A stretch of 52,343 nt of DNA, from the NCBI GenBank assembly GCA_003221895.1, contig QHUJ01000128.1:1-52343 (forward strand). Reading direction: 5' to 3'. Of this stretch, positions 2,395-45,074 are shown piece after piece (the first letter of the stretch is position 1; each line of letters starts with the position of its first letter). Source of the DNA: Gemmatimonadota bacterium (lineage in GTDB: Bacteria > Gemmatimonadota > Gemmatimonadetes > Gemmatimonadales > GWC2-71-9). The notes beneath the pieces are model-generated. The model made no database searches. It saw only the letters and a program-made list of their open reading frames with translations, and was not told where the DNA came from. The position numbers and the translations under genes were made by a program.

Positions 2395-3443
2395 GATCCA
2401 CGGACCCGTTCGGTGATGGCGGCGAGCGGCCACAGTGTCAACCGCAGCGCCGCATCCCAGTCGCCACGGACGAGACTGCGGCCGAGCTGTCGACCTTGAA
2501 TGCGGCCGGTCACCTGGAGTGCCGGGAAGTAAAAACCTTTCTCACGCACGGACGGATATCCCCACTTGCCCGGCGCAAACCGCCGCCGGATCTGCGCGGG
2601 CAGCAAGGCCGTGCCGAGCAGCCGCTCATTGACGAAGTCGACGTAGCTCAGATAACACCCCAGGCCTTCGAGGCCACCGTGCGATCGGGCGGTGGCCACT
2701 ACGTAGTCCCAATCGAGCCGAGGTGTCCGCAGGATTTCGATGGTCTGCACGACGTCGCACAGATGGAATGAGCGCCGCCCCGTCACCTTCTCCAGCCCCT
2801 GCAGGACCAGCTGATCCTCGACCGAGGGAATGCGGAACTCTGTGCCCCCCATGATCACCGCCCGGGCATTGCGGTCGAGTGTTTTCGCAAACGCGGCGTG
2901 CTGGCCCGCGCTTCCCACGCGGCCATGGCGCACGTCGAACACGAGAGCCGATGCCGGGTCTCCCCCCGTGGCGATCGAGTACAGTGTATTCGCAGCGACC
3001 CGAGCCGTGAGGCTTGGCTCCTGGCGCGTGACCGGCAGACCCTCGAACACCAACTGGTCGGTGGCCGAGCTGTCACTGAACACCAGGACATCCACGTCGT
3101 CGCCGACATCCGGAAAGCGCTGCAACGCTTTGGGCGCCATCCAGGCGAGGCCGTGTCTCGCGGCATTCGACTGGATGTGTTGCAGCACCGCAAGCATGGA
3201 ATGTCCCCGAGCCCGCTCCTCGACGGCCGCGCGTACCAGCATCCGCGGCGCTACCCCGCTCGCCATGAATCGATCGGTGACGCGAACGATCACCGTATGA
3301 TGCCGCGCGACACGCTCCATCAACTCCCAGTCCACGCCGTCAAGTGACGGGCGTGCGCGCTCGTCGAGCAGGACGCGAAGCATGAGCTGCGCGTGGGTCG
3401 CCACGGTCGACGCAGGGGGGGCGGGGGCGGGGCGGGTCGTCAT
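2391..3443 (-). CDS. Nucleotidyltransferase-like protein (NTP_transf_5 type)
   Basis: A 350-residue protein resembling the uncharacterised nucleotidyltransferase family often found in exopolysaccharide loci with HPr-kinase-like or AsnB-like partners. The key sign is GDDVDVLVF (114-122), with paired acidic residues in the position that binds metal in polymerase-beta-type nucleotidyltransferases, inside an otherwise helical protein. It is coupled on both sides (ATGA with the GT4 upstream, GTGA with the ligase downstream), so it is made together with glycan-assembly enzymes. The same GDxD arrangement recurs in the N-terminal half of the protein at 19322-20788. Substrate unknown; activity is inferred from the motif only. 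Confidence 0.65.
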   Translation of the reverse strand: MTTRPAPAPPASTVATHAQLMLRVLLDERARPSLDGVDWELMERVARHHTVIVRVTDRFMASGVAPRMLVRAAVEERARGHSMLAVLQHIQSNAARHGLAWMAPKALQRFPDVGDDVDVLVFSDSSATDQLVFEGLPVTRQEPSLTARVAANTLYSIATGGDPASALVFDVRHGRVGSAGQHAAFAKTLDRNARAVIMGGTEFRIPSVEDQLVLQGLEKVTGRRSFHLCDVVQTIEILRTPRLDWDYVVATARSHGGLEGLGCYLSYVDFVNERLLGTALLPAQIRRRFAPGKWGYPSVREKGFYFPALQVTGRIQGRQLGRSLVRGDWDAALRLTLWPLAAITERVRGS

Positions 3444-4705
3444 GAGGACACGAGCGCCGGTATGAGCACCGGGCGAGCAGGCTGATTGGCACCCAGCAGT
3501 GCGGCGAGCCGACGGCCGTTGCGGGTCATATCGAACAGATCTTCGGTGCGGCGTCTGGCACGCTCGGCGAGGCCGGCGCGCAACGCGGCGTCGTCGAGGA
3601 GCCGCGCGATCGCGCTCGCCAGCGCCTGAACATCGCGTGGAGGCACGAGGATGCCGCAGCGGCCATCGTCCAACGCCTCGGGGATGCCGGCCACGCGCGA
3701 TGCGATCACGGGTGTGCCGAGCGCCATCGCCTCACGCAAGACGTTGGGGAGTCCGTCGCCAAGACGGTCCGATGGGTGGACCAGCGCGGTCGCTGCGCTC
3801 ATCGCGTCCCGTACCTCGTCGAACCGGAGCCAGCCGCGAAATGTCACGGCGCTCCCGATCCCCAGGGTTTGCGAGAGGCGTTCGAGTGTGGCGCGCTCCG
3901 GTCCATCGCCGACGATCTCCAGCTCGACGCCGAACCCGCGATCGGCGAGCTGACGCACCGCATGCAGCAGGTAGGCAAAGCCTTTGTCGCGCGCGAGCCG
4001 GCCGACGGCCAGCAGGCGGCGCGCCGGCCGGCCGGATGGCTGGTACGGGAATGCGCTCCCGGCCAGATCCAGTCCGTGATAACACACGTGGATCTTCGGC
4101 GCGAGCGTCGCCGCCGCGTCTGCGTAGCGCTGCAAGATGAAGTCGCGATTGAATGCGCAGCACGTGATGATGTTGTCGGCGTATTCGAGCTTCTGCCGCA
4201 GATAGGCCGGGCGGAAGTAGAGATCGGTGCCGGCGTGCACCCAAATGGAGAACGGCACGCGTCGCCGTTGCAGGCGATGAAACAGATAGGCGCAGGTGCC
4301 GGCGTAGTTGCCCCAATACGCGAGGACGTGGTCGTACCGGTCGCCAAAACGCTCGGCCGCGGCCCACGCTGTGGGCGCGACGTACGCGGTCTTGGCGAGC
4401 GGCATCACGCCATGCGGCAGCGCCGCCAGGGTGGCGGCAATGGTGTCGCGTGCGAAGCGGCCCCGACCGCGCCAACCACCGCGCACGCTCGCCCCCAGAC
4501 TCTCGCGCCAGTCCAGGTGATGCACACGCTCGCGCGGGAGCACCTGATCGAGCGTCGGGTCTGCATACTGCCACATTGCGACGTCGAGCGGGTGGATCGG
4601 AAAGACGTCGACGGAGACACCCGCATCGATCAAGCCCCGCATGTCGCGCTCGAAAAACGTGGCGACACGCGCGGGATATTTGCTCGTGAAGACGGCCAGT
4701 TTCAC
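3440..4705 (-). CDS. Family 4 glycosyltransferase
   Basis: A 421-residue GT-B fold glycosyltransferase, first gene of a four-gene leftward operon. The C-terminal donor-binding half is clear: LLAVGRLARDKGFAYLLHAV, then GLPNVLREAMALGTPVIAS with the family's E-x7-E-like helix that binds the nucleotide sugar. The N-terminal half begins LAVFTSKYPARVATFFERDM, as in GT4 enzymes of colanic-acid-type pathways. There is no signal peptide or membrane span, so it acts in the cytosol or at the membrane surface. Translation starts at a GTG. Upstream lies an activator-type dyad (4856-4873), but I found no sigma-54 element for this gene. Confidence 0.88.
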   Translation of the reverse strand: MKLAVFTSKYPARVATFFERDMRGLIDAGVSVDVFPIHPLDVAMWQYADPTLDQVLPRERVHHLDWRESLGASVRGGWRGRGRFARDTIAATLAALPHGVMPLAKTAYVAPTAWAAAERFGDRYDHVLAYWGNYAGTCAYLFHRLQRRRVPFSIWVHAGTDLYFRPAYLRQKLEYADNIITCCAFNRDFILQRYADAAATLAPKIHVCYHGLDLAGSAFPYQPSGRPARRLLAVGRLARDKGFAYLLHAVRQLADRGFGVELEIVGDGPERATLERLSQTLGIGSAVTFRGWLRFDEVRDAMSAATALVHPSDRLGDGLPNVLREAMALGTPVIASRVAGIPEALDDGRCGILVPPRDVQALASAIARLLDDAALRAGLAERARRRTEDLFDMTRNGRRLAALLGANQPARPVLIPALVSS

Positions 4706-5012: not shown

Positions 5013-5103
5013 CGCTGCTCAGAGCAAACCCGTCGAAAGACGGCGACGCAGAGCTACGGGGCTAACGCGGTTGCACGCCGCCATGTCCGCCGGGCCGCCA
5101 GCG
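5013..5103 (+). promoter_or_regulatory. GEMM-I riboswitch (cyclic di-GMP-I class, A20 variant)
   Basis: The leader of the lipoprotein operon matches the GEMM-I aptamer of Vibrio Vc2 closely. P1 pairs CGCTG (5013-5017) with CAGCG (5099-5103). AGAGCAAACC precedes a P2 hairpin CCGTC-GAAA-GACGG (5030-5043) with a GNRA loop. Then come GACGCAGAGC (Vc2 GACGCAAAGC) and GGGGCTAAC. The P3 stem GCGG/CCGC follows at 5067-5070 and 5078-5081. By my alignment the base equal to Vc2 G20 is A and A47 is kept. In GEMM-I RNAs, A20 is the signature of the variants that sense 3',3'-cGAMP or are promiscuous; G20 types sense cyclic di-GMP. The ligand therefore needs testing. Confidence 0.85.
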
Positions 5104-5142
5104 ATCCCATATCGGGTCGACCATGGCGGCCCGGTTCGTTTT
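5090..5142 (+). terminator. Riboswitch-controlled intrinsic terminator
   Basis: CCGGGCCGCCA (5090-5100) pairs perfectly over 11 bp with TGGCGGCCCGG (5124-5134), and TTCGTTTT follows. An inner stem (CGATCCC with CGGGTCG around ATAT) extends the hairpin. The 5' arm of this terminator is the last part of the riboswitch aptamer, including half of P1, so aptamer folding and terminator folding exclude each other. The simplest reading is an ON switch: bound ligand holds the aptamer, the terminator cannot form and the lipoprotein operon is transcribed. Confidence 0.75.
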
Positions 5143-5163: not shown

Positions 5164-8058
5164 ATGACCGTCACGAACAAGCTGGTCCTCGCGGCCCTAG
5201 GCATTGCTGTATTCGTGTCCTGTGAAAAGGTCGTGGCACCAGGATCGATTTCGCAGTTTGCCCTCTCTCCGAACAGCGTCACCCTGCAGGCCAATCAGAT
5301 AGAAGACTTCACAGCCGTCGGGTACACGAGCACCGGCGACAGCGCCGATGTCGCCGTCACGTGGACCGCGACGGGCGGCACCGTGGACGCGACCGACAAC
5401 GGGCGGCGGCATTACGGGCACTATCACAGCGCCGCTTGCGGCGTCTTCCACGTGGTCGCCACCAGCCATCCGGGAAACCTCTCCGACAGCGCCATCGTGA
5501 CGGTGGCGGGGTGTAATGTGTCGGTCGCCTCGGTCGCCGTGAGTCCATCGAGCGGCACTGTGGCCGTCAATCAATCCGTGCACCTCAGCGCGACGCCGAA
5601 GGACGCCAACGGCAACGCGCTGTTCGGACGTGCGATTGCCTGGTCGAGCAGCAACACCTCCGTGGCCGTGGCCGACGTCAACGGCAACGTGACCGGTCTG
5701 GCGCCTGGATCAGCGGCGATTACGGCGACAAGCGAAGGGCAGAGTGGCACGGCGGCGATCACGGTGACGGACGTCGCCGTTGCCTCCGTGGCAGTCTCGC
5801 CGGCCTCCGCCAGCGTTGCGGCGGGAAGTACGGTGCAGCTCACCGCGACACCCAAAGACGCGAACGGCAATACCCTCTCAGGTCGAGTCGTGACGTGGTC
5901 GAGCAGCAACACCGCGGCCGCGGTCGTCAACGCGAGCGGTCTGGTGACGGGTATCGCGGCTGGTTCGGCGACGATTACGGCGACGAGCGAAACGAAGACC
6001 GGTACGGCGGCGATCACGGTGACGGCCGTCCCCGTTGCCTCCGTGTCCGTCTCGCCGGCCTCCGCCAGCGTTGCGGCGGGGAATACGGTGCAGCTCACCG
6101 CGACACCCAAAGACGCGAACGGCAATACCCTGTCAGGTCGAGTCGTGACGTGGTCGAGCGACAACACCGCAGCCGCGACCGTCAACGCGAGCGGTCTGGT
6201 GACGGGTATCGCGGCTGGTTCGGCGACGATCACGGCGACGAGTGAAGGGCACAGCGGTACCGCGGCGATTACCGTCACGGCCTCATCGGGTGGGTTGTGC
6301 ACCACCAGCACGACCTCCTTCCAGAACGCCGCATTCGACGTCCAGTCCGGCTCGTTCACGGCCGCCTTCGACGCCACCCCGAACGGGGCGGGCATCGATG
6401 CCCTGACGGGCCTGTCACAGGGCGCGGCGGCGACGTACACGGACCTGGCCGTGATCGTCCGCTTCAACTCGAGCGGCGCCATCGACGCCCGCAACGGCGG
6501 CGCGTATGCGGCGGACAACGCGATCCCGTACAGCTCCGGCACCAGCTATCACTTCCGCGTCGTGGTCGACGTCTCGAGTCACACCTACTCGGTGTACGTG
6601 ACCCCGTCGGGTGGCAGTGAGCAGACCGTCGGCAGCGGCTACGCATTCCGCAGCGAGCAGAGCGCCGTGACATCGCTCGGCAACTGGACGCTGACCGCGC
6701 TATCGGGCGCTCACACCGTTTGCAACTTCGGGATCACCGGCTCCGCGCCGCCCGCGCCGGTGGCCACGGTGAGCGTGTCGCCCGCGTCGGCGACGATCAA
6801 TGACGGGCAGACGCAGCAGCTGTCGGCGACTCCCCGGGACTCGAACGGTACCCAGCTCTACGGGCGGGTCGTGACGTGGTCGAGCAACAACACCGCGGCT
6901 GCCACAGTGAGCAGCAGCGGGCTCGTGAGCGGCATCGCCGCGGGCTCCGCGACGATTACGGCGACGAGCGAAGGAAAGAACGGCACCTCGGCCATCACCG
7001 TGGTGCACATGCCGGTTGCGTCGCTGACCGTCACGCCCGCTTCCGCCAGTGTTTCGGCGGGCAGCACGGTACAGCTCACCGCGACACCGCGGGACGCCAA
7101 CGGCAACGCGTTGGTCGGGCGGACCGTCACGTGGTCGAGCAACACCACGGCCGCCGCGACGGTGAATGGCAGCGGGCTCGTTACGGGCGTCGCGGCCGGC
7201 TCGGCGACGATTACGGCGACGAGCGAGGGGCAGAGCGGGACGTCCGCGGTTACCGTGACGCCCCCCGGCACCTCGCAGTTCGGGCATGTCTTCATCGTGA
7301 CCGAGGAGAACACCGATTACGCGTCAGTCACGAGCTCGAATATGCCGTACCTCATGGGGCTGGCGGCGCAATACGGGCTGGCGACGCAGTACTACGCCAA
7401 CACCCACCCATCGATCGGCAACTACTTCGAGCTGGCGACGGGCCAGGTTCTGACGAACGACGACGGCTCGTCGGTGATCGAGAATGTGCCGAACATCGTG
7501 CGCAGTCTCGTGAGCGCCGGGAAGACGTGGAAGTCGTACGCGGAGAGCATTCCCAACGCCTGCTTCCTCGGCGGCGATACGGGGAACTACGCTCGCAAGC
7601 ACAACGTCTTTGCCCTGCTGTCGGATGTGGCGAACGATCCGACGGGACAGGCGTGCAACATCGTGCCCTTTACGCAATTCGCGACGGATCTGGCGAGCGG
7701 TACGTTGCCGGCCTTCTCGAACATCGTGCCGGACCTCTGCAATGACGCGCACGATTGCTCGTTGACGACGGCCGACACCTGGCTGCGGACGAACATCGGG
7801 CCGCTGCTCGCCAACGCGACGTTCCAGCAGGATGGTCTGTTGATCATCGTGTTCGACGAGTCTGGCGGTGACAACGCCAACGGCGGCGGCCGCATCGTCT
7901 GGGTGGCGGTGAGCTCCAAGTCGAAGCCTGGCTACCAGTCGACCACGCTGTACCAGCACCCGAGCACCCTGCGGCTGATCCTGAAGGCGCTGGGTGTGAC
8001 GTCATATCCCGGCGCGGCCGCCACGGCGCCGGACATGAGCGAGTTCTTCAACCCATAA
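5164..8058 (+). CDS. Large BIG2 lipoprotein with lectin-like and phosphoesterase domains
   Basis: A 964-residue exported lipoprotein: a short hydrophobic signal ends in the lipobox FVSC with Cys20. Domains in order are an Ig-like module (about 24-110), three BIG2-type repeats (about 118-375), a concanavalin-A-like jelly-roll region (about 377-529), two more BIG2 repeats (about 530-700), and a C-terminal phosphoesterase of the acid-phosphatase/phospholipase C type (about 701-964; HVFIVTEEN, then YYANTHPSIGNYFELATGQ). It probably stands off the outer membrane and acts on or binds surface glycan or lipid. The ATG at 5164 has GGGAGAGG 6 bp upstream; the earlier in-frame ATG at 5071 lies inside the riboswitch. 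Translation of this operon should follow the riboswitch state. Confidence 0.88.
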   Translation: MTVTNKLVLAALGIAVFVSCEKVVAPGSISQFALSPNSVTLQANQIEDFTAVGYTSTGDSADVAVTWTATGGTVDATDNGRRHYGHYHSAACGVFHVVATSHPGNLSDSAIVTVAGCNVSVASVAVSPSSGTVAVNQSVHLSATPKDANGNALFGRAIAWSSSNTSVAVADVNGNVTGLAPGSAAITATSEGQSGTAAITVTDVAVASVAVSPASASVAAGSTVQLTATPKDANGNTLSGRVVTWSSSNTAAAVVNASGLVTGIAAGSATITATSETKTGTAAITVTAVPVASVSVSPASASVAAGNTVQLTATPKDANGNTLSGRVVTWSSDNTAAATVNASGLVTGIAAGSATITATSEGHSGTAAITVTASSGGLCTTSTTSFQNAAFDVQSGSFTAAFDATPNGAGIDALTGLSQGAAATYTDLAVIVRFNSSGAIDARNGGAYAADNAIPYSSGTSYHFRVVVDVSSHTYSVYVTPSGGSEQTVGSGYAFRSEQSAVTSLGNWTLTALSGAHTVCNFGITGSAPPAPVATVSVSPASATINDGQTQQLSATPRDSNGTQLYGRVVTWSSNNTAAATVSSSGLVSGIAAGSATITATSEGKNGTSAITVVHMPVASLTVTPASASVSAGSTVQLTATPRDANGNALVGRTVTWSSNTTAAATVNGSGLVTGVAAGSATITATSEGQSGTSAVTVTPPGTSQFGHVFIVTEENTDYASVTSSNMPYLMGLAAQYGLATQYYANTHPSIGNYFELATGQVLTNDDGSSVIENVPNIVRSLVSAGKTWKSYAESIPNACFLGGDTGNYARKHNVFALLSDVANDPTGQACNIVPFTQFATDLASGTLPAFSNIVPDLCNDAHDCSLTTADTWLRTNIGPLLANATFQQDGLLIIVFDESGGDNANGGGRIVWVAVSSKSKPGYQSTTLYQHPSTLRLILKALGVTSYPGAAATAPDMSEFFNP
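5779..6288 (+). repeat. Two near-identical 255-bp BIG2 units
   Basis: Within the lipoprotein gene, the units starting at 5779 and 6034 are almost identical at DNA level (exactly 85 codons each). For example, the stretch through GACACCCAAAGACGCGAACG is shared without change. The other BIG2 units in the gene have diverged much more, so this pair is a recent duplication or has been homogenised by gene conversion. Confidence 0.8.
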
Positions 8059-8073
8059 CGAATTGGAACGACC

Positions 8074-10761
8074 ATGACCTTCAAGCACAAGCTCTCGTCG
8101 CGCCTGGCCCGGTTGTGGGCCCGTCGTGCCCCCGCGGCTGCGGTCATCGCCGTTGGGGTTATCTTTGGATGCTTGCGCGCCGTTCCAACCGATGCTCGTA
8201 CTCTTGTGAGGCTCGTCATCCTGCCGCCGCTCGTGAGCCTCGCGGTGAACCAATCCACGGACTTCTACGTCTTCGGAATCACTGACGCCAACGATTCTGT
8301 GGCCGTCGCCGTCGACTGGAGCGCCACGGGCGGCACCATCATCGATTCCTCCGTGGTCAACGGCAATGGCATGCACAAGGGGCATTTCAGAGCCGGTGGC
8401 CAGCCGGGCAGTTACAAGGTGATGGCGAACGATCCGGCCAGCGGGAAGTCCGACAGCGCCAGCGTTGTCGTGACCTCGACGGTCTCCTCGATCGCCTCGG
8501 TGGTCGTCATCCCCGCGAATGCGGGCGCGGCCGTCGGAGGCACGATCCAGTTTGTCGCGGTTCCGCTCGATGCCAATGGCACTGCGCTGGGTGGCCGCGT
8601 CATCTCCTGGTCCAGCTCCAACACATCCGTCGCGAGCGTGGACGGCAACGGGCTGGCGACCGCGCTGGCGGCCGGTACCGCCTCGATCACTGCGACCAGT
8701 GAAGGCGTAACGGGCAGTGGGACCCTTGCCGTCAGCACCACGGTCCTGCCGGTTGCCTCGGTTACGATCAGCCCGGCGTCCGCTTCGGTTGTCGTCGGTC
8801 TCACCGCGCAGCTGAGCGCGACCCTGCGGGACGCGAACGGCAATACGGTGACCGGCCGCACCATCACGTGGTCGAGCACCAGTGCGTCCGTCGCGACCGT
8901 CAGCGGGACTGGATTGGTCACGGGCGTCGCCGTCGGCTCGGCGAGCGTGATCGCCACGAGCGAAGGCAAGGCAGACACCGCGGTGGTGACTGTCACCTCC
9001 GCCGCGCCCCCCCCGGTGGCTTCGGTCACCATCAGTCCCGCGTCTGCATCGGTGGTTGTCGGTCTCACCGCACAACTGAGCGCGACCCTGCGGGACGCGG
9101 GCGGCAATACGCTGACCGGCCGCACTATCACCTGGTCGAGCACCAATGCGTCCGTCGCGACCGTCAGCGGGAGTGGATTGGTCACGGGCGTCGCCGTCGG
9201 CTCGGGGAGCGTGATCGCCACGAGTGAAAGCAAAGCGGACACCGCGGCGGTCACTGTCACCTCCGCCGCGCCCCCCCCGGTGGCTTCGGTCACCATCAGC
9301 CCGGCGTCCGCGACGGTGTTTGTCGGATTCACGTCACAGCTCACCGCGACGCTGCGGGACGCGAACGGCAACCTGCTGACCGGCCGCACGATCACGTGGG
9401 CGAGCAGCAATACCTCCGTCGCAGCCGTCAACGGGAGTGGAGTGGTCACGGGCGTCACCACAGGTTCGGCGAGCGTGACGGCCACGAGTGAAGGCAAGGT
9501 CGGCACCGCGGCGATTACGGTGACGACGCCTCCGCCGCCACCGACGGGCTCGTGCCTTACCCAATCGGGCCCCCTCGTCACGTTGAGCGGGCTGCAAACG
9601 TCGACCTACGAGACGACGAGTCTCGCCGGCTCGACCAGGATGGACGCCACGACGGTGCAGTTCCTCGTCGATCAGTCGGTGAACGTGGTGACCCGCGTCG
9701 GTGGTGGGGACGGTATCTGCTGGTCCGGAGGCGAGATCCTCGGCCAGTACGTGCCCGCGACGCCGTGGACCACCATGCACGACAAGTACGGGATGATCCC
9801 CGGCTCGCACGCGAGCGCGAACCTGATCCACATCGAGAACCTCACGGTCTTCGATCAAGGGGATGGCATCAGCTTTGACACCCAGCCCGACAGCGCGTGG
9901 TCGATCCGCAACGTGCACGTCAAGTACAGTCGGGATGATTGCGTCGAAAACGATCTCATGAATGACGGCACGGTCGATTCGTCGTTCTTTGACGGATGCT
10001 ACGACATCATGAGCGCCCAGGAGTACACGTCAGCCCACGACGGGAGCAACAAGCTCATTACGATCAGCAACTCGCTTGCGCGACTGCAGGAGATGGACGC
10101 TATCTATGAGACTGGATCAGCAGTCCCGCGGCATGAGGCGATTTGGAAGTGGAGTTCCATTGGGCCGAAGCTCGCCTTGTACAATAACGTTTTTCGGGCT
10201 GATGCCCCTTCGATCTCTGGTCAGGGCGCCCGCATGTACATGGCGCCACCGCCCGGCAAGCTGGCGGACTGCTCGAACAACGTCATGGTGTGGCTCGGTC
10301 CCGGGTCGTTCCCCGAGACCCTGCCCACCACGTTCAACGGGAAACAATGTTTCACGATCATGACCGGGGCGGCCGGCCTCGCATACTGGGACGCGGCCGT
10401 CGCAGCGTGGCACGCCGCTCACCCGAATACGCTGCCGGATGTGGCACCGCCCATCGTGGGGATGTATTCCCCGGGACTTACCGGCAGCACGACGCTCACG
10501 GGCGTCGTGACCCTGAGGGCGACTGCGGTGGACGACCGCGACGTGGTTGGCGTTCAGTTCCAGATGAACGGCACGTCCATCGGTGCCGAAGTGACGACGG
10601 GTGGAGTCAGCGGTCCTGGTGCTACCGGCCCCACGAAGTATGCGCTCTCGTGGGACTCGCACGGCGTGGCGAACGGTACCTATACCCTCACGGCGATCGC
10701 GAGAGACGCCGTTGGCCACACCACGACCTCAGCCGGCGTGACGGTGACGGTAAGCAACTAG
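8074..10761 (+). CDS. BIG2 lipoprotein with predicted beta-helix domain
   Basis: An 895-residue lipoprotein, 15 bp downstream of the previous one and in the same riboswitch-led operon. The signal peptide ends in VIFGC (Cys33). It then has an Ig-like module, four BIG2 repeats (about 139-486), and a region (about 490-770) rich in short turns such as VTRVGGGDGICWSGG and HIENLTVFDQGDGISFDTQ. That region looks like a right-handed parallel beta-helix of the kind found in polysaccharide-binding or -cleaving proteins. A final bacterial Ig-like domain (about 793-895) ends in VTVTVSN. No catalytic residues could be assigned. With its neighbour it suggests a cyclic-dinucleotide-controlled pair of surface proteins that bind or process the glycan made here. 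Confidence 0.82.
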   Translation: MTFKHKLSSRLARLWARRAPAAAVIAVGVIFGCLRAVPTDARTLVRLVILPPLVSLAVNQSTDFYVFGITDANDSVAVAVDWSATGGTIIDSSVVNGNGMHKGHFRAGGQPGSYKVMANDPASGKSDSASVVVTSTVSSIASVVVIPANAGAAVGGTIQFVAVPLDANGTALGGRVISWSSSNTSVASVDGNGLATALAAGTASITATSEGVTGSGTLAVSTTVLPVASVTISPASASVVVGLTAQLSATLRDANGNTVTGRTITWSSTSASVATVSGTGLVTGVAVGSASVIATSEGKADTAVVTVTSAAPPPVASVTISPASASVVVGLTAQLSATLRDAGGNTLTGRTITWSSTNASVATVSGSGLVTGVAVGSGSVIATSESKADTAAVTVTSAAPPPVASVTISPASATVFVGFTSQLTATLRDANGNLLTGRTITWASSNTSVAAVNGSGVVTGVTTGSASVTATSEGKVGTAAITVTTPPPPPTGSCLTQSGPLVTLSGLQTSTYETTSLAGSTRMDATTVQFLVDQSVNVVTRVGGGDGICWSGGEILGQYVPATPWTTMHDKYGMIPGSHASANLIHIENLTVFDQGDGISFDTQPDSAWSIRNVHVKYSRDDCVENDLMNDGTVDSSFFDGCYDIMSAQEYTSAHDGSNKLITISNSLARLQEMDAIYETGSAVPRHEAIWKWSSIGPKLALYNNVFRADAPSISGQGARMYMAPPPGKLADCSNNVMVWLGPGSFPETLPTTFNGKQCFTIMTGAAGLAYWDAAVAAWHAAHPNTLPDVAPPIVGMYSPGLTGSTTLTGVVTLRATAVDDRDVVGVQFQMNGTSIGAEVTTGGVSGPGATGPTKYALSWDSHGVANGTYTLTAIARDAVGHTTTSAGVTVTVSN
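8752..9540 (+). repeat. Three tandem 264-bp BIG2 units with C8 tracts
   Basis: Units begin at 8752, 9016 and 9280, each 88 codons apart. The first two are nearly identical over most of their length. The junctions carry runs of eight C (9007-9014 and 9271-9278) coding for Ala-Pro-Pro-Pro linkers. Both the long repeats and the homopolymer runs are prone to slippage or recombination. Confidence 0.8.
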
Positions 10762-10780: not shown

Positions 10781-10817
10781 AACCCATCCCTCCGCTTTGG
10801 GGGGATGGGTTTTTTTT
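10781..10817 (+). terminator. Strong intrinsic terminator
   Basis: AACCCATCCC pairs with GGGATGGGTT around a short loop and runs into eight T. It ends the rightward lipoprotein operon 20 bp after its stop. The stop codon of the convergent deacetylase gene lies within the T-run. The minus strand has no T-run after the hairpin, so it is unlikely to work for the leftward operon. Confidence 0.92.
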
Positions 10818-11625
10818 ATGAGGGCTTTGCGAGGGGCCGTTGGCTCTGCCGCTGCACGTAGTAGCGGTACGGTCCGGGTAGCGCCGCCCGGACGAAGTTC
10901 TTGACTCGGCGGACCAGCATCGCCCGACCCCAGCCATTGAAATGCGCGAGCCGCCCGATCCGCGCGGCTGGTGTGGCCGCCTTCGGCGAGAAACGGCCTA
11001 CCATCCAGCATCCGTCGACCAGCTCGGCAGTGAGCGTCGGCTCGCAGGTGAAGAGGTAGCGCAAGCCTGCGGGGCCGGCGGTTGCCAGTACCAGCGGCGA
11101 GATGTCTCCGCCCGGCACGGCGGCGGCGATGCACGGCTCGCCCAGGAGATCGGCCAGCCGGTCGCAGCTGATGCGCCACTCGGTCATCATCTGGTCCCGC
11201 GTCAGCTCGCGGAAGATGTCGGGGTGGGTATGCGAGTGACTGCCGACGATGTGCCCGCAGCCGCGCAGGTACCGGATTTGGGGGGCATCGAGAAAGCCCG
11301 GCGTTCCGATGCGGTCGGTCGTGACGAAGAAGTGGCCGAGCCACCCGCGGCGGCACAGCTCATCGCCGATCTCGACCGCGCTGCGCCCCCCATCGTCAAA
11401 GGTCAGTAACAGCCGCCGGCCGGGGGTCGTGAAGTCGATCGCCGTGACGAGCTCGGCACGCATGGCCGCGCCCGCGAGTGCGTCGAGGTGCTTCGCGAAG
11501 GTCGCCCAATCGTGTTTGAAGACCGTGGCGCCGGGACCTTCGAACCCTGAGTCCCGGGGATCGTCGGTCACGTCGTGATACGCGAAGACGGCTGTCAGCG
11601 CGACAGCGGTAGGCTGGCCGGCCAC
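10816..11625 (-). CDS. Polysaccharide deacetylase (NodB-type)
   Basis: A 269-residue carbohydrate esterase family 4-like enzyme expected to remove N- or O-acetyl groups from a glycan or its precursor. It has FAYHDV near the start, the metal-binding LLLTFDDGG (72-80, paired Asp), and GSHSHTH (128-134) for the His ligands. No signal peptide is visible, so it probably acts on the cytoplasmic side. I chose the GTG at 11625, which has AGAGGA about 11 bp upstream; it overlaps the end of the GT2 gene by 31 bp. An open frame continues upstream to 11763, but that would overlap the GT2 gene further. Last gene of its operon. Confidence 0.82.
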   Translation of the reverse strand: MAGQPTAVALTAVFAYHDVTDDPRDSGFEGPGATVFKHDWATFAKHLDALAGAAMRAELVTAIDFTTPGRRLLLTFDDGGRSAVEIGDELCRRGWLGHFFVTTDRIGTPGFLDAPQIRYLRGCGHIVGSHSHTHPDIFRELTRDQMMTEWRISCDRLADLLGEPCIAAAVPGGDISPLVLATAGPAGLRYLFTCEPTLTAELVDGCWMVGRFSPKAATPAARIGRLAHFNGWGRAMLVRRVKNFVRAALPGPYRYYVQRQSQRPLAKPS

Positions 11626-12635
11626 GTCCGGCGGGATCCTCTGAGGAATTCGATCACGGATCGCAGATAGCCGATCCCGTAACTGAAATGGACGATAGGA
11701 AAGACCAGGGCAAGTGTTGCCATGGTCCGGAGGCCCGACTTGCGCGCCGCAACCAGCGCGCACCCTACCGCGGTGAGGATGTACGTCGCGGCCATCCCCG
11801 CGAGCACCACGCGGGCCGAGTGAATCCGCGGGGCGAGGATGGCGCTCACGAGGAGTGACAACAGGAAGAGCGGTGGGACGAGCTGCCGGAACGTGGTTAC
11901 GCGGCCCAGCTTCCCGACGACGAGCGGCTTGGAATACCCGTACTGGTAGTACATGCGAGCGACCTGACGCAGCGTCTCGCGCGCGTAGTAGTACGCCACG
12001 ACCTGCGGGACGAGCAACACGCGTCCGCCTGCGCTGATCAGGCGCGCGTTGAATTCACTGTCTTCGTCGCGCTGGTGTTCGTCGAACAGCCCAACCCGGT
12101 CGAATGTCTCCCGGCGGCAACAGAAGAACGCCACCGTGTCCACCCAGCGCGATTGGCGCACGCCGATGCGGAAGTAGGCGTTGCCGACGCCGAACGGGTG
12201 CGACAGCGCGAGCGCGATCGCACGACCGACGGGTGTTTCGGTGGCGGGCTGGGTGACGATCACCCCACCCACGTTGTCAGCGCCGGTTTCCACGAGCGCG
12301 GCCACGAGGTCGCCGATGTAGTTGGGCGGGTACAGCGCGTGGGCGTCCATGCGCACGATGATCTCGCCGGCGGCGGCGCGAATGCCGACGTTCAGGGCGA
12401 TCGGCTGAATCCGCCCGGGGTTGTCGAGCACGCGGATCATCGGATATCGGTTCACGTACTCGTTGAGAATGGCCAGCGTGCGGTCCTCGCTCCGCCCGTC
12501 TACGACCAGCACTTCGAGGCGATCGTGGGGGTACGTCGTCGAGAGTATGGAGTCGAGGCAGCGCGCAATGAAGCGCTCTTCGTTGCGGCACGGCACAATC
12601 ACCGTCACCGTGGAGCGCTGGGAGTGGGTGGTCAT
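11595..12635 (-). CDS. Family 2 glycosyltransferase, membrane-anchored (paralogue)
   Basis: A 346-residue GT2 enzyme, aligned end to end with the protein at 8-1051: CRNEERFIARCLDSILSTTYPHD here, CLNEERFIGACLDSILATQHPHD there. The VVDGRSEDRT and RMDAH (DxD-type) motifs are kept, there is an acidic DEDSEFNARL in place of QDDELNFRL, and the C-terminus carries about three membrane segments. The ATG at 12635 overlaps the stop of the ATP-grasp gene as ATGA; the longer upstream frame lies inside that gene and was rejected. Together with its paralogue it suggests that two related glycans, or two steps with similar acceptors, are made at this locus. Confidence 0.9.
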   Translation of the reverse strand: MTTHSQRSTVTVIVPCRNEERFIARCLDSILSTTYPHDRLEVLVVDGRSEDRTLAILNEYVNRYPMIRVLDNPGRIQPIALNVGIRAAAGEIIVRMDAHALYPPNYIGDLVAALVETGADNVGGVIVTQPATETPVGRAIALALSHPFGVGNAYFRIGVRQSRWVDTVAFFCCRRETFDRVGLFDEHQRDEDSEFNARLISAGGRVLLVPQVVAYYYARETLRQVARMYYQYGYSKPLVVGKLGRVTTFRQLVPPLFLLSLLVSAILAPRIHSARVVLAGMAATYILTAVGCALVAARKSGLRTMATLALVFPIVHFSYGIGYLRSVIEFLRGSRRTWPASLPLSR

Positions 12636-13975
12636 GCCTGGATCGCCATCACCGTCTCCGAGACCTGGCTCGGGGGAGGGGAGGCAGGAGCAGGGGCTGG
12701 CATAGGCGCGGCCACCGGCGCGGACGGGAGAACCGCGCGCTGTGTCGCGGGTGCTCGACGGTGCCACAGCCGCTCGCGCACGACGCGCCCGAGCTCAGCA
12801 GCGCCCTGCACCCATTCGCCCACGCTCGGCCACGGATCGTTCCAACTCCACATCTCGCTTCTTGTGCCGCGCGGCTGCGGTCCCAGGATTTCCCAGAACC
12901 CCTTCGCCCAGCTGGGATAGGGGACAGGACAACCCGGAGGCGGACCATCGAGGATGAAGAGCGCGCGTTTCACGTCGCCCCACAACCAGCGAAGCGTGAC
13001 GCCGGACTTGTAATCGACCGGTGCAGCGACAGGCATGTTGCCGATCAGCGCTGTCCACATAGCGGGGAAGTCGACGCCTGCGGCGACGGCGAGCGCGAGC
13101 GAGCTCCAGAACCGGCCGTTGACCTCCATGAGGCACGGCTCGCCCTCGCCATCATCGCGGAACTCCACCATGGCCGGTCCATGCCAGCCCATCGCGGCGA
13201 GCAGCCGCATCGACGGCTCGCGCAAGCGGGGCTCGACCGGAATCGACCGGCGAAGACTGCTGCCCGAGCCCGACGGTCGGATATCGCGGAGCCGCTCGTG
13301 CGCGAACCAGACGATGGGTGTGCCGCGGTCGTACAGCGCAAACACGCCCTTGCCGCGACCGCCGACCACGCCCTGGATCAGGGGCCAGAGTGTGCCCTGG
13401 CGGCACGCGAGCACCGTCGCTTCGAGATCGGCCTCATTCTGTACGTATTCCGCGCCGTGAGCCGCTACGTAGTGGTTGCCGTCCCAGTAGTCGCTCAGAC
13501 GCGGCTTGACGATGCACGGATAGCCAACGGCAGCCGCGGCCTCGCGCGCCTCGGCGAACGACGTCGGGAATCCCGTGGGTGGAATGCGCACGCCACACGC
13601 TTGGGCAAACCTCAACGTGCTCGCCTTGTCGAAGGCACGCAGCAGCAGGTCCGTGGGACCGCAGCCGAGCCGCATGCCCCAACGCTCCCATTCATGGCGC
13701 TCGGTGTTCAACATCAGGCAGGTGCGCTCGCGCTGCGGCAAGACGACCTGCACTCCCTGCACGCGAGCCCAGTCGCGCACTTCGGCCAGAGCCGCGACGC
13801 TGTCGCCGGACTGGTGGAAGGAATCACGGCAGTAGCGGGACCAGGCGGCGAGCGGGCGCCGCGTCGGGCTTGCGATGAACACGGTGGCGCCGCCGCGCCC
13901 CAGTGAGCGCGCGCAGGCGAGCGCCTGATTGGTGTGTCCGTCGAGGACCAGGACGCGCCGGTTATGAAACGGCAT
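12632..13975 (-). CDS. ATP-grasp ligase-like protein
   Basis: A 447-residue ATP-grasp protein, the fold that joins a carboxylate to an amine or similar nucleophile using ATP. The pre-ATP-grasp domain begins VLVLDGHTNQALACARSLG. The nucleotide-binding lysine is in YPCIVKPRL (Lys157), and the metal-binding end is FRDDGEGEPCLMEVNGRFW (EVNGRF about 283-288). Similar free-standing ATP-grasp proteins in polysaccharide clusters are thought to attach amino acids or modify sugar acids, but the substrate is unknown. It overlaps the upstream fusion gene by 14 bp and the downstream GT2 by 4 bp, so all four genes of this operon are translationally coupled. About the last 60 residues are Pro/Ala-rich and low in complexity. 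Confidence 0.82.
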   Translation of the reverse strand: MPFHNRRVLVLDGHTNQALACARSLGRGGATVFIASPTRRPLAAWSRYCRDSFHQSGDSVAALAEVRDWARVQGVQVVLPQRERTCLMLNTERHEWERWGMRLGCGPTDLLLRAFDKASTLRFAQACGVRIPPTGFPTSFAEAREAAAAVGYPCIVKPRLSDYWDGNHYVAAHGAEYVQNEADLEATVLACRQGTLWPLIQGVVGGRGKGVFALYDRGTPIVWFAHERLRDIRPSGSGSSLRRSIPVEPRLREPSMRLLAAMGWHGPAMVEFRDDGEGEPCLMEVNGRFWSSLALAVAAGVDFPAMWTALIGNMPVAAPVDYKSGVTLRWLWGDVKRALFILDGPPPGCPVPYPSWAKGFWEILGPQPRGTRSEMWSWNDPWPSVGEWVQGAAELGRVVRERLWHRRAPATQRAVLPSAPVAAPMPAPAPASPPPSQVSETVMAIQA

Positions 13976-43839: not shown

Positions 43840-44808
43840 CTAGGCGGAGTACCCCTGAAGCCAACCCTGGCTCGAGTCGGCGCGGGCTCGCTGCAGCGCC
43901 ATATCCGCCTGCTGCATCAGGGCCGCCACGTCGACCGACGTCTTATCCGCCGCGGCAACACCATGATAGCCTGCCCGTACCCGCAGCTTCGGGAGCGCCG
44001 GGACGTTTGCGCTCGCAGGCTTGGCGACGATCGCAGCACCCAGCCGCTCCGCCAGCTGCCTTGCCTGTGCCGCGTCCGTATCGACCGCGACCACCGCGAA
44101 CGAGTTCGTGCTGAGCCGGCCGATCGCGTCCGAATGTCGGGTTGCTGAGCGCAGCGCGCTGGCGATGCTCCGCAGGACCCACAGCGGAGGAGAGGGATGG
44201 TCGCGAGGCTCAGTGGTGGCTGCTTCATCCGAGGACTCCACGTAACCGGCGCCGTCAATCTCGGGCGCCAGGAGCACGCAACACAACGCCACATGGCGGC
44301 GCGTGGCGCTTGCGGCCAACTCGTCCGCCCGCCGCAGCAGACCGCGCATGTTGTAGACGCCCGTCGCCTCATCTACCAGGCCCTGCGAGCGTGCCTGATC
44401 CGCCTCGAGCTTGGCCGGTACGTACACTCCGAGCATCGCGACGAGCTCTTCGGCATCCACCGGTTCTCCCAGGCATGCCCAGGCACTGGCCTGCAGCGCT
44501 GCAATCCGGTCGCGCCGCGTTGGCGGCCGCGACAACGCCAGGAAGATCGGCGTGCTGGGGGAAACGAGGTTCTCGTCGGTGAGCTGGCGGCACAGCGCAT
44601 AGCCATCGCCATCGGGAAGCTGCTCGTCGATGATGACGGCGTCGGGTGGGTTGGTCCGGATGCGCTTGAGCGTCTGGGCGCGATTGAACGTCTTGCCCAC
44701 GACATAGCCGTACGGGGCGAGGATGGTCGCCAGAGAACGGCTGGTCCACTCATGCGTGCTAGCAATCAAGAGGTCGACAGGCCGTGCTGCCGGTCCCCGT
44801 GTGGGCAT
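43840..44808 (-). CDS. Receiver protein with degenerate GGDEF domain
   Basis: A 322-residue protein. The first half is receiver-like: Asp61 in VIIDEQLPDGDGY is present, but the usual KP lysine is Glu in CLGEPVD. The second half begins like a diguanylate cyclase (LVDEATGVYNMRGLLRRADE, cf. DxLTGLxNRR). It has ATRHSDAIGRLSTNSFAVVAV, so the catalytic GGDEF is STNSF, and it cannot be expected to make cyclic di-GMP. It may bind a partner or a nucleotide, or stand as a remnant. The ATG at 44808 has AGAGGA 6 bp upstream and was preferred to one at 44877. It lies opposite the histidine kinase gene. Confidence 0.8.
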   Translation of the reverse strand: MPTRGPAARPVDLLIASTHEWTSRSLATILAPYGYVVGKTFNRAQTLKRIRTNPPDAVIIDEQLPDGDGYALCRQLTDENLVSPSTPIFLALSRPPTRRDRIAALQASAWACLGEPVDAEELVAMLGVYVPAKLEADQARSQGLVDEATGVYNMRGLLRRADELAASATRRHVALCCVLLAPEIDGAGYVESSDEAATTEPRDHPSPPLWVLRSIASALRSATRHSDAIGRLSTNSFAVVAVDTDAAQARQLAERLGAAIVAKPASANVPALPKLRVRAGYHGVAAADKTSVDVAALMQQADMALQRARADSSQGWLQGYSA

Positions 44809-45074
44809 TACCAGTCCTCTCATCACAAGCGGTGCTGCACTCATGGCCGCGCTCCAGAAGTCATAATTCATCTGCACGATGCGTGCGCGGCGTTCCAGCG
44901 CTAAGATGGCCCCCTGCAGCTAATTGGCCGAACCACTGTTTTTCATCTTTTCAAACTGCAGCAGGAGGCCCACAGCGCTGTGGAATCGTCGCGCAGTGCG
45001 GTCGCCGCAGCGGTGTTGGAAAAGCGCACAATTGTGACGGGTCCGCAAGGGTGAATGCCCAGCAGGGGTTGACA

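Follow-up and report, generated by a model that had tools for sequence, protein, structure and literature searches.

A natural A20 subclass of GEMM-I riboswitches, most likely sensing 3',3'-cGAMP, upstream of Big_2 lipoprotein genes in Gemmatimonadota

The window, by which we mean the whole 52,343-nucleotide stretch of Gemmatimonadota DNA that was analyzed, contains a GEMM-I aptamer and an overlapping terminator upstream of two genes for putative lipoproteins. The features of this locus, with the evidence for each, are as follows.

5013..5103, + strand: GEMM-I (c-di-GMP-I, RF01051) aptamer including a 5-bp P1 (cmscan; P1 covariation in 38 distinct relatives)
5023, + strand: A at the ligand-specificity position, Vc2 G20 (cmscan alignment; A in 39/40 class members)
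5050..5051, + strand: A47, a conserved pocket base, and G48, a subclass signature together with A20 (GACGCAGAG/GACGCAAAG split by base 20)
5098, + strand: C92, also inside the terminator 5' arm (cmscan alignment, pocket-base comparison)
5090..5100, + strand: terminator 5' arm, comprising the P3 3' strand, C92 and the start of P1 (11 consecutive Watson-Crick pairs with 5124-5134)
5124..5134, + strand: terminator 3' arm (pairing with 5090-5100; terminator scan)
5135..5142, + strand: U-rich tract TTCGTTTT (window sequence; similar tracts in genomes G028 and G034)
5164..8058, + strand: gene 1, a 964-aa putative lipoprotein with Big_2 repeats and a C-terminal Phosphoesterase domain, PF04185 (Big_2 6.8e-74; PF04185 4.7e-26; N-terminus)
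8074..10761, + strand: gene 2, 15 nt downstream of gene 1, encoding an 895-aa putative lipoprotein in which Big_2 and Big_7 domains are found (domain matches; N-terminus)

Both downstream reading frames have lipobox-like N-termini. Gene 1 is taken to start at the ATG at 5164; the upstream TTG start in the raw list of reading frames would give 995 aa. We infer the surface location and the function of these Big_2 targets. A conserved N-terminal motif, M-[TP]-F-x-x-KL-x-x-RLA (consensus MxxxxKLxxRLAxxR), precedes the signal peptide at 8074-8170 and in many other proteins downstream of related riboswitches (e.g. L064, L063 and L074). On the minus strand, the lipoprotein operon is bordered by genes for glycosyltransferases and a polysaccharide deacetylase (3440-4705 and 10816-12767). 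The product of 43840-44877, also on the minus strand, joins a response regulator receiver to part of a GGDEF domain (match from profile position 58). No sigma-70-like promoter was found upstream of the window riboswitch.

The aptamer is the only Rfam match in the 52 kb window (cmscan, Rfam 15). It scores 56.9 bits against RF01051 at 5013-5102 on the + strand (gathering score 35, E = 1.5e-8) and covers model positions 1-87 of 87, which bears out the near-full GEMM-I match of the original prediction. P1 has five base pairs (5013-5017 with 5099-5103). The GNRA caps that had been described for both P2 and P3 are found at P2 (GAAA) and not at P3. The covariance-model alignment was also used to check base 20, and it places an A there as had been claimed: A5023 is model position 11, unpaired and immediately 5' of G21-C22-AAA. 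The three-helix fold is kept with its pocket, for which G21-C22-A23-A24-A25, A47 in J2/3 (5050) and C92 in J1/3 (5098) are all present. In the GEMM-I family, C92 is the partner of the ligand's G. The equivalents of A20, A47 and C92 in the crystallized cGAMP riboswitch are A14, A41 and C75 (PMC6274999). Among 38 distinct related aptamers, 14 pairs in the structure have two-sided changes, compared with a shuffle mean of 4.3. As far as sequence can indicate, the window RNA appears to be a real riboswitch belonging to a natural A20 subclass of GEMM-I, and its ligand is most likely cGAMP.

The 3' end of this aptamer can form a second structure. An 11-bp terminator arm pairing with it had been predicted, and the pairing of 5090-5100 with 5124-5134 is indeed Watson-Crick throughout and is followed by TTCGTTTT; a terminator scan picks up the same site. 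The 130 nt from 5013 to 5142 fold at -65.7 kcal/mol, against an average of -50.2 for shuffled versions (z = -4.1), none of which, out of 200, did as well. This minimum-energy fold is the terminator form, and the forced aptamer form has an energy of -46.5 kcal/mol. The U-tract is interrupted in the window terminator and almost missing in the C196 paralogue of the host genome, and tracts resembling TTCGTTTT or TTTCGTTTT occur at the subclass members of G028 and G034. Because the 5' arm overlaps P3, C92 and P1, the terminator and the ligand-bound aptamer are mutually exclusive, and the simplest reading is thus an ON switch in which ligand blocks termination. When no ligand is bound, an intrinsic terminator would form with the aptamer 3' strand of the nascent RNA as its 5' arm, ending transcription upstream of the gene. 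Binding would fix 5090-5100 within P1 and the three-way junction, the terminator would be blocked, and both Big_2 surface lipoproteins would be transcribed. Ligand should, by this layout, turn transcription of the two genes ON.

The same design recurs in related genomes. The host genome has four GEMM-I aptamers, three with A20 (on contigs C125, which is the window, C196 and C90) and one with G20 (C57). When 115 GEMM-I matches in 61 related genomes were classified, 57 had G20 and 39, from 16 of the 61 genomes, were subclass members that combine A20 with CUCAGA-GC-AAA and nearly always with GACGCAGAG. The remaining A20 matches were mostly of another make (GAGCACACC...CCGCAAAA). If the class is defined without reference to base 20, then an A is found there in 39/40 members. 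The sole member with G (L097, G013:C12:38522-38621) is in a genome without a GGDEF protein of the Ser type described below. Base 48 divides along similar lines, with GACGCAGAG accompanying A20 in 37/38 cases and GACGCAAAG accompanying G20 in 28/30. The best stem that the aptamer 3' end can form with downstream DNA has a median score of 26.5 in the subclass, 19.0 in shuffled sequence and 17.5 in G20 members (p = 3e-13), and at least five T in the next 9 nt after the stem are found for 63% of the subclass compared with 4% of G20 members. A terminator built from the aptamer 3' strand is a property of the subclass, present in most of its members and lacking in the G20 paralogues, and the complementarity between the two strands is kept across genera. 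Big_2 domains are present in 27/31 proteins downstream of the subclass.

Two individual aptamers deserve mention. The host genome's only G20 aptamer (L003, G000:C57) is upstream of a glycerate kinase gene and is followed by a separate hairpin and T-run that do not use the aptamer 3' strand. An apparent spread of the subclass to Armatimonadetes/ANGP1 was set aside, since the aptamer at L192 is identical to that of G028:C184 and the metagenome-assembled genomes come from similarly named soil samples, which makes a mis-binned contig likely.

The search for a Hypr-type enzyme that had been suggested for this genome yielded a Ser-type GGDEF protein. Among 16 GGDEF matches in the host genome, most of them canonical, G000:C76:18068-18523 has a MASE1 sensor and a GGDEF domain with Ser at the PleD D344 / GacA S348 position. 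It also has the GGDEF motif, RATD at the I-site and, at the cross-dimer position, His in place of the Arg of canonical enzymes. The Ser is Hypr-defining, its combination with GGDEF is the active one, and a non-Arg cross-dimer residue favors cGAMP (PMC6456294, PMC8835794); together these residues mark cGAMP makers (PMC6456294). All three sequence features are present here. The Ser and the GGDEF motif are invariant in 30/30 orthologues of the MASE1-GGDEF enzyme, and the cross-dimer residue is His in its own genus, Tyr in most others and Gln in G115. We consider this protein a candidate cGAMP synthase on the strength of these residues, and cGAMP for the window switch would come from it.

The candidate resembles the Hypr GGDEF GacA (Gmet_1914, PDB 6d9m/5vs9) in Ser348, in the GGDEF motif and in its non-Arg cross-dimer residue, which is Tyr in GmGacA (6d9m) as in most orthologues. 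A 'GHLVGS' motif is shared by GacA and most orthologues of the Gemmatimonadota enzyme. Unlike GacA, the latter has a MASE1 membrane sensor domain in place of Rec, and its GGDEF domain is only moderately similar to 6d9m (E = 3e-25), which is not its best PDB match. The Gemmatimonadota Hypr enzyme possibly originated independently of GacA. The host genome also encodes two near-identical GGDEF proteins fused to Fe-S or Fe-hydrogenase-like domains (L009 and L010; G000:C136:885-1355 and G000:C44:8114-8584) that have Asn at the base-selectivity position. GGDEFs of this Asn type are found repeatedly in the order, also in genomes without the A20 subclass.

Switch and enzyme tend to occur together. Of 288 genomes in the order, 34 have the subclass pattern, 30 the Ser orthologue and 23 both. 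The enzyme is present in 23/34 riboswitch genomes versus 7/254 others (Fisher p = 7.6e-20 by genome), and the association also holds by genus (7/12 versus 3/67, Fisher p = 2.7e-5), by genus within family f1 (p = 4e-4) and among high-quality genomes (14 with both, 4 and 4 with one, 137 with neither; p = 2e-13), all of these tests ignoring phylogeny. The co-occurrence partly reflects shared ancestry, a concern that the genus-level results and those from a second phylum reduce without removing it. A DNA-motif search found 35 Ser/Thr-type GGDEFs of any kind in the order, 30 of which are the MASE1-GGDEF orthologue. Association with the Ser orthologue is weak for G20 riboswitches and negative for an A20 variant with 'GCACAC'.

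The second phylum is Nitrospirota, which was reached through the riboswitch pattern. Ser-GGDEFs were found in 3/3 genomes at first and, in one Nitrospirota class, in 6/6 genomes, of which 5/6 have the riboswitch subclass. One of these Ser-GGDEFs has GmGacA as its best PDB match (E = 2e-48), and the subclass member L166 has the same terminator layout as the window's. In another Nitrospirota locus (L320), the subclass leader precedes a CxxCH-rich putative multihaem cytochrome, which is closer to the Geobacter theme.

There are exceptions in both directions. No Ser/Thr GGDEF was found by motif search, which could miss synthases that lie outside the motif, in six subclass genomes: G015, G039, G108, G248 and G253 (93-99% complete) and G254 (83%). 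In these, a different synthase may serve, c-di-GMP may be the signal, or the pathway may have been lost. Asn-type GGDEFs were rejected as the missing synthase because they are also found in genomes without the switch. Conversely, no GEMM-I match was found in three family f3 genomes that have the enzyme.

The 'GCACAC' variant (GAGCACACC...GGCCGCAAAAC) occurs in 13 genomes, all without a Hypr orthologue. In many of these it precedes STAS-domain genes, encoding a small protein in several genera of family f1 (L106, L091, L099, L104, L108, L111, L095, L109 and others), and it possibly has a distinct ligand or function. Its distribution shows that A20 alone is not diagnostic, and we do not take this base by itself to prove cGAMP sensing.

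Some leaders contain more than one aptamer. Two or three A20 copies are found in a row in G001 and G002. At five loci from three genera, L025 (G007:C17), L053, L057 and L026 (G028) and L067 (G034:C77), the leader of a single Big_2 lipoprotein gene has an A20 switch with its terminator and, 68-96 nt further on, a G20 aptamer whose 3' end is about 20 nt from the start codon. A CCTC element adjoins the G20 aptamer and, judged by eye, could pair either with the 5' flank or with the Shine-Dalgarno region. This order of elements suggests that one ligand would control transcription and the other translation, and it would be hard to explain why A20 and G20 aptamers share transcripts if they responded to one and the same ligand. 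The tandem leaders are predicted to act as cGAMP AND c-di-GMP gates. No c-di-GMP-I/c-AMP-GMP pair is listed in the tandem table of PMC9481103. We put the chances as about even that Gemmatimonadota have a second, cGAMP circuit beside c-di-GMP, composed of a MASE1-Hypr cyclase and an A20/G48 lipoprotein regulon, some members of which join both messengers on one mRNA as an AND gate outside the published tandem list.

For the window itself, the leader is probably a GEMM-I transcriptional ON riboswitch with a pocket (A20, A47, C92) built for 3',3'-cGAMP, most likely made by the MASE1-GGDEF protein of the same genome. The aptamer, its base 20, the competing terminator, the conservation of the subclass, the Ser signature of the enzyme and the co-occurrence are computed features, and from them we infer the identity of the ligand, including the choice between cGAMP and dual specificity. 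The proposal that cGAMP or c-di-GMP turns on the two Big_2 lipoproteins gains support from A at base 20, the Hypr candidate, the co-occurrence in the order and in Nitrospirota, and the ON-terminator layout.

The Vc2 G20A mutant retains affinity for c-di-GMP, which makes dual sensing possible. The leader could then be a working ON switch that senses c-di-GMP alone or equally with cGAMP, its A20 simply loosening the pocket and the Hypr enzyme having indirect relevance. The mostly canonical set of 16 GGDEF matches, the six genomes at least 83% complete in which the subclass is present and the Hypr enzyme was not detected, and the confinement of the other A20 variant to genomes without a Hypr orthologue all favor this explanation. 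However, the subclass and Ser-GGDEFs strongly co-occur in two phyla, G20 paralogues are kept alongside A20 members both within cells and within mRNAs, and A20 is fixed (39/40) and paired with G48, so that we regard it as a serious but distinctly less probable account. A decayed or constitutive leader that keeps its terminator and has lost ligand control might explain the imperfect U-tract and a terminator fold computed, with ligand absent, to be more stable by about 19 kcal/mol than that of the aptamer, but the aptamer is full-length with all pocket bases, compensatory changes are seen among its 38 distinct members, and the terminator arm stays complementary across genera, all of which make such decay very improbable. 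That A20 and G48 read another purine-containing cyclic dinucleotide is scarcely credible: although known cGAMP structures do not account for G48, C92, which partners the guanine half, is invariant, and c-di-AMP binding in this scaffold took C92U besides G20A (PMC7288161).

The cGAMP switch favored here has relatives among described systems. It shares A20, A47 and C92 with the GEMM-Ib 3',3'-cGAMP riboswitches of Geobacter (e.g. Gs1761 and Gmet_0970). The Geobacter RNAs are ON switches for cGAMP in genomes that also encode a Hypr GGDEF, features with predicted counterparts here (PMC6456294, PMC8835794). Unlike GEMM-Ib, the junction and P2-P3 are Vc2-like (CAGAGCAAA...GACGCAGAG) with G48 present, the main targets are Big_2 lipoproteins instead of cytochromes and other extracellular electron transfer genes, and the hosts are Gemmatimonadota and Nitrospirota. 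The architecture is that of the Vc2 c-di-GMP-I riboswitch, and the natural RNA resembles its engineered G20A mutant (PDB 4YB1), which binds cGAMP (PMC6274999, PMC7288161), whereas A20 here is natural and fixed, occurs with G48 and is joined to a terminator-based expression platform. The cluster-3 c-AMP-GMP aptamer of Desulfobacca acetoxidans, which binds c-AMP-GMP better by in-line probing, is a homologue that likewise has A20 naturally and shares its genome with G20 paralogues; its tandem partners are AdoCbl switches, whereas here A20 aptamers share transcripts with other A20 copies or a G20 aptamer (PMC9481103).

A literature search, whose coverage did not include key papers of 2015-2017, found no paper tying Gemmatimonadota to cGAMP riboswitches or Hypr enzymes. 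Gemmatimonadota is a common, little-cultured soil phylum, and cGAMP riboswitches have been characterized mainly in Geobacter-like Deltaproteobacteria. In the leaders that pair A20 with G20, nature provides a direct test of how two near-identical messengers are kept separate in one cell. Together, the switch and the enzyme point to an uncharacterized signaling pathway in Gemmatimonadota. If this is true, then riboswitch-plus-Hypr signaling would extend to Gemmatimonadota and Nitrospirota, a MASE1 membrane sensor would be added as an input domain, and cGAMP would gain a new output in surface lipoproteins with Ig-like repeats.
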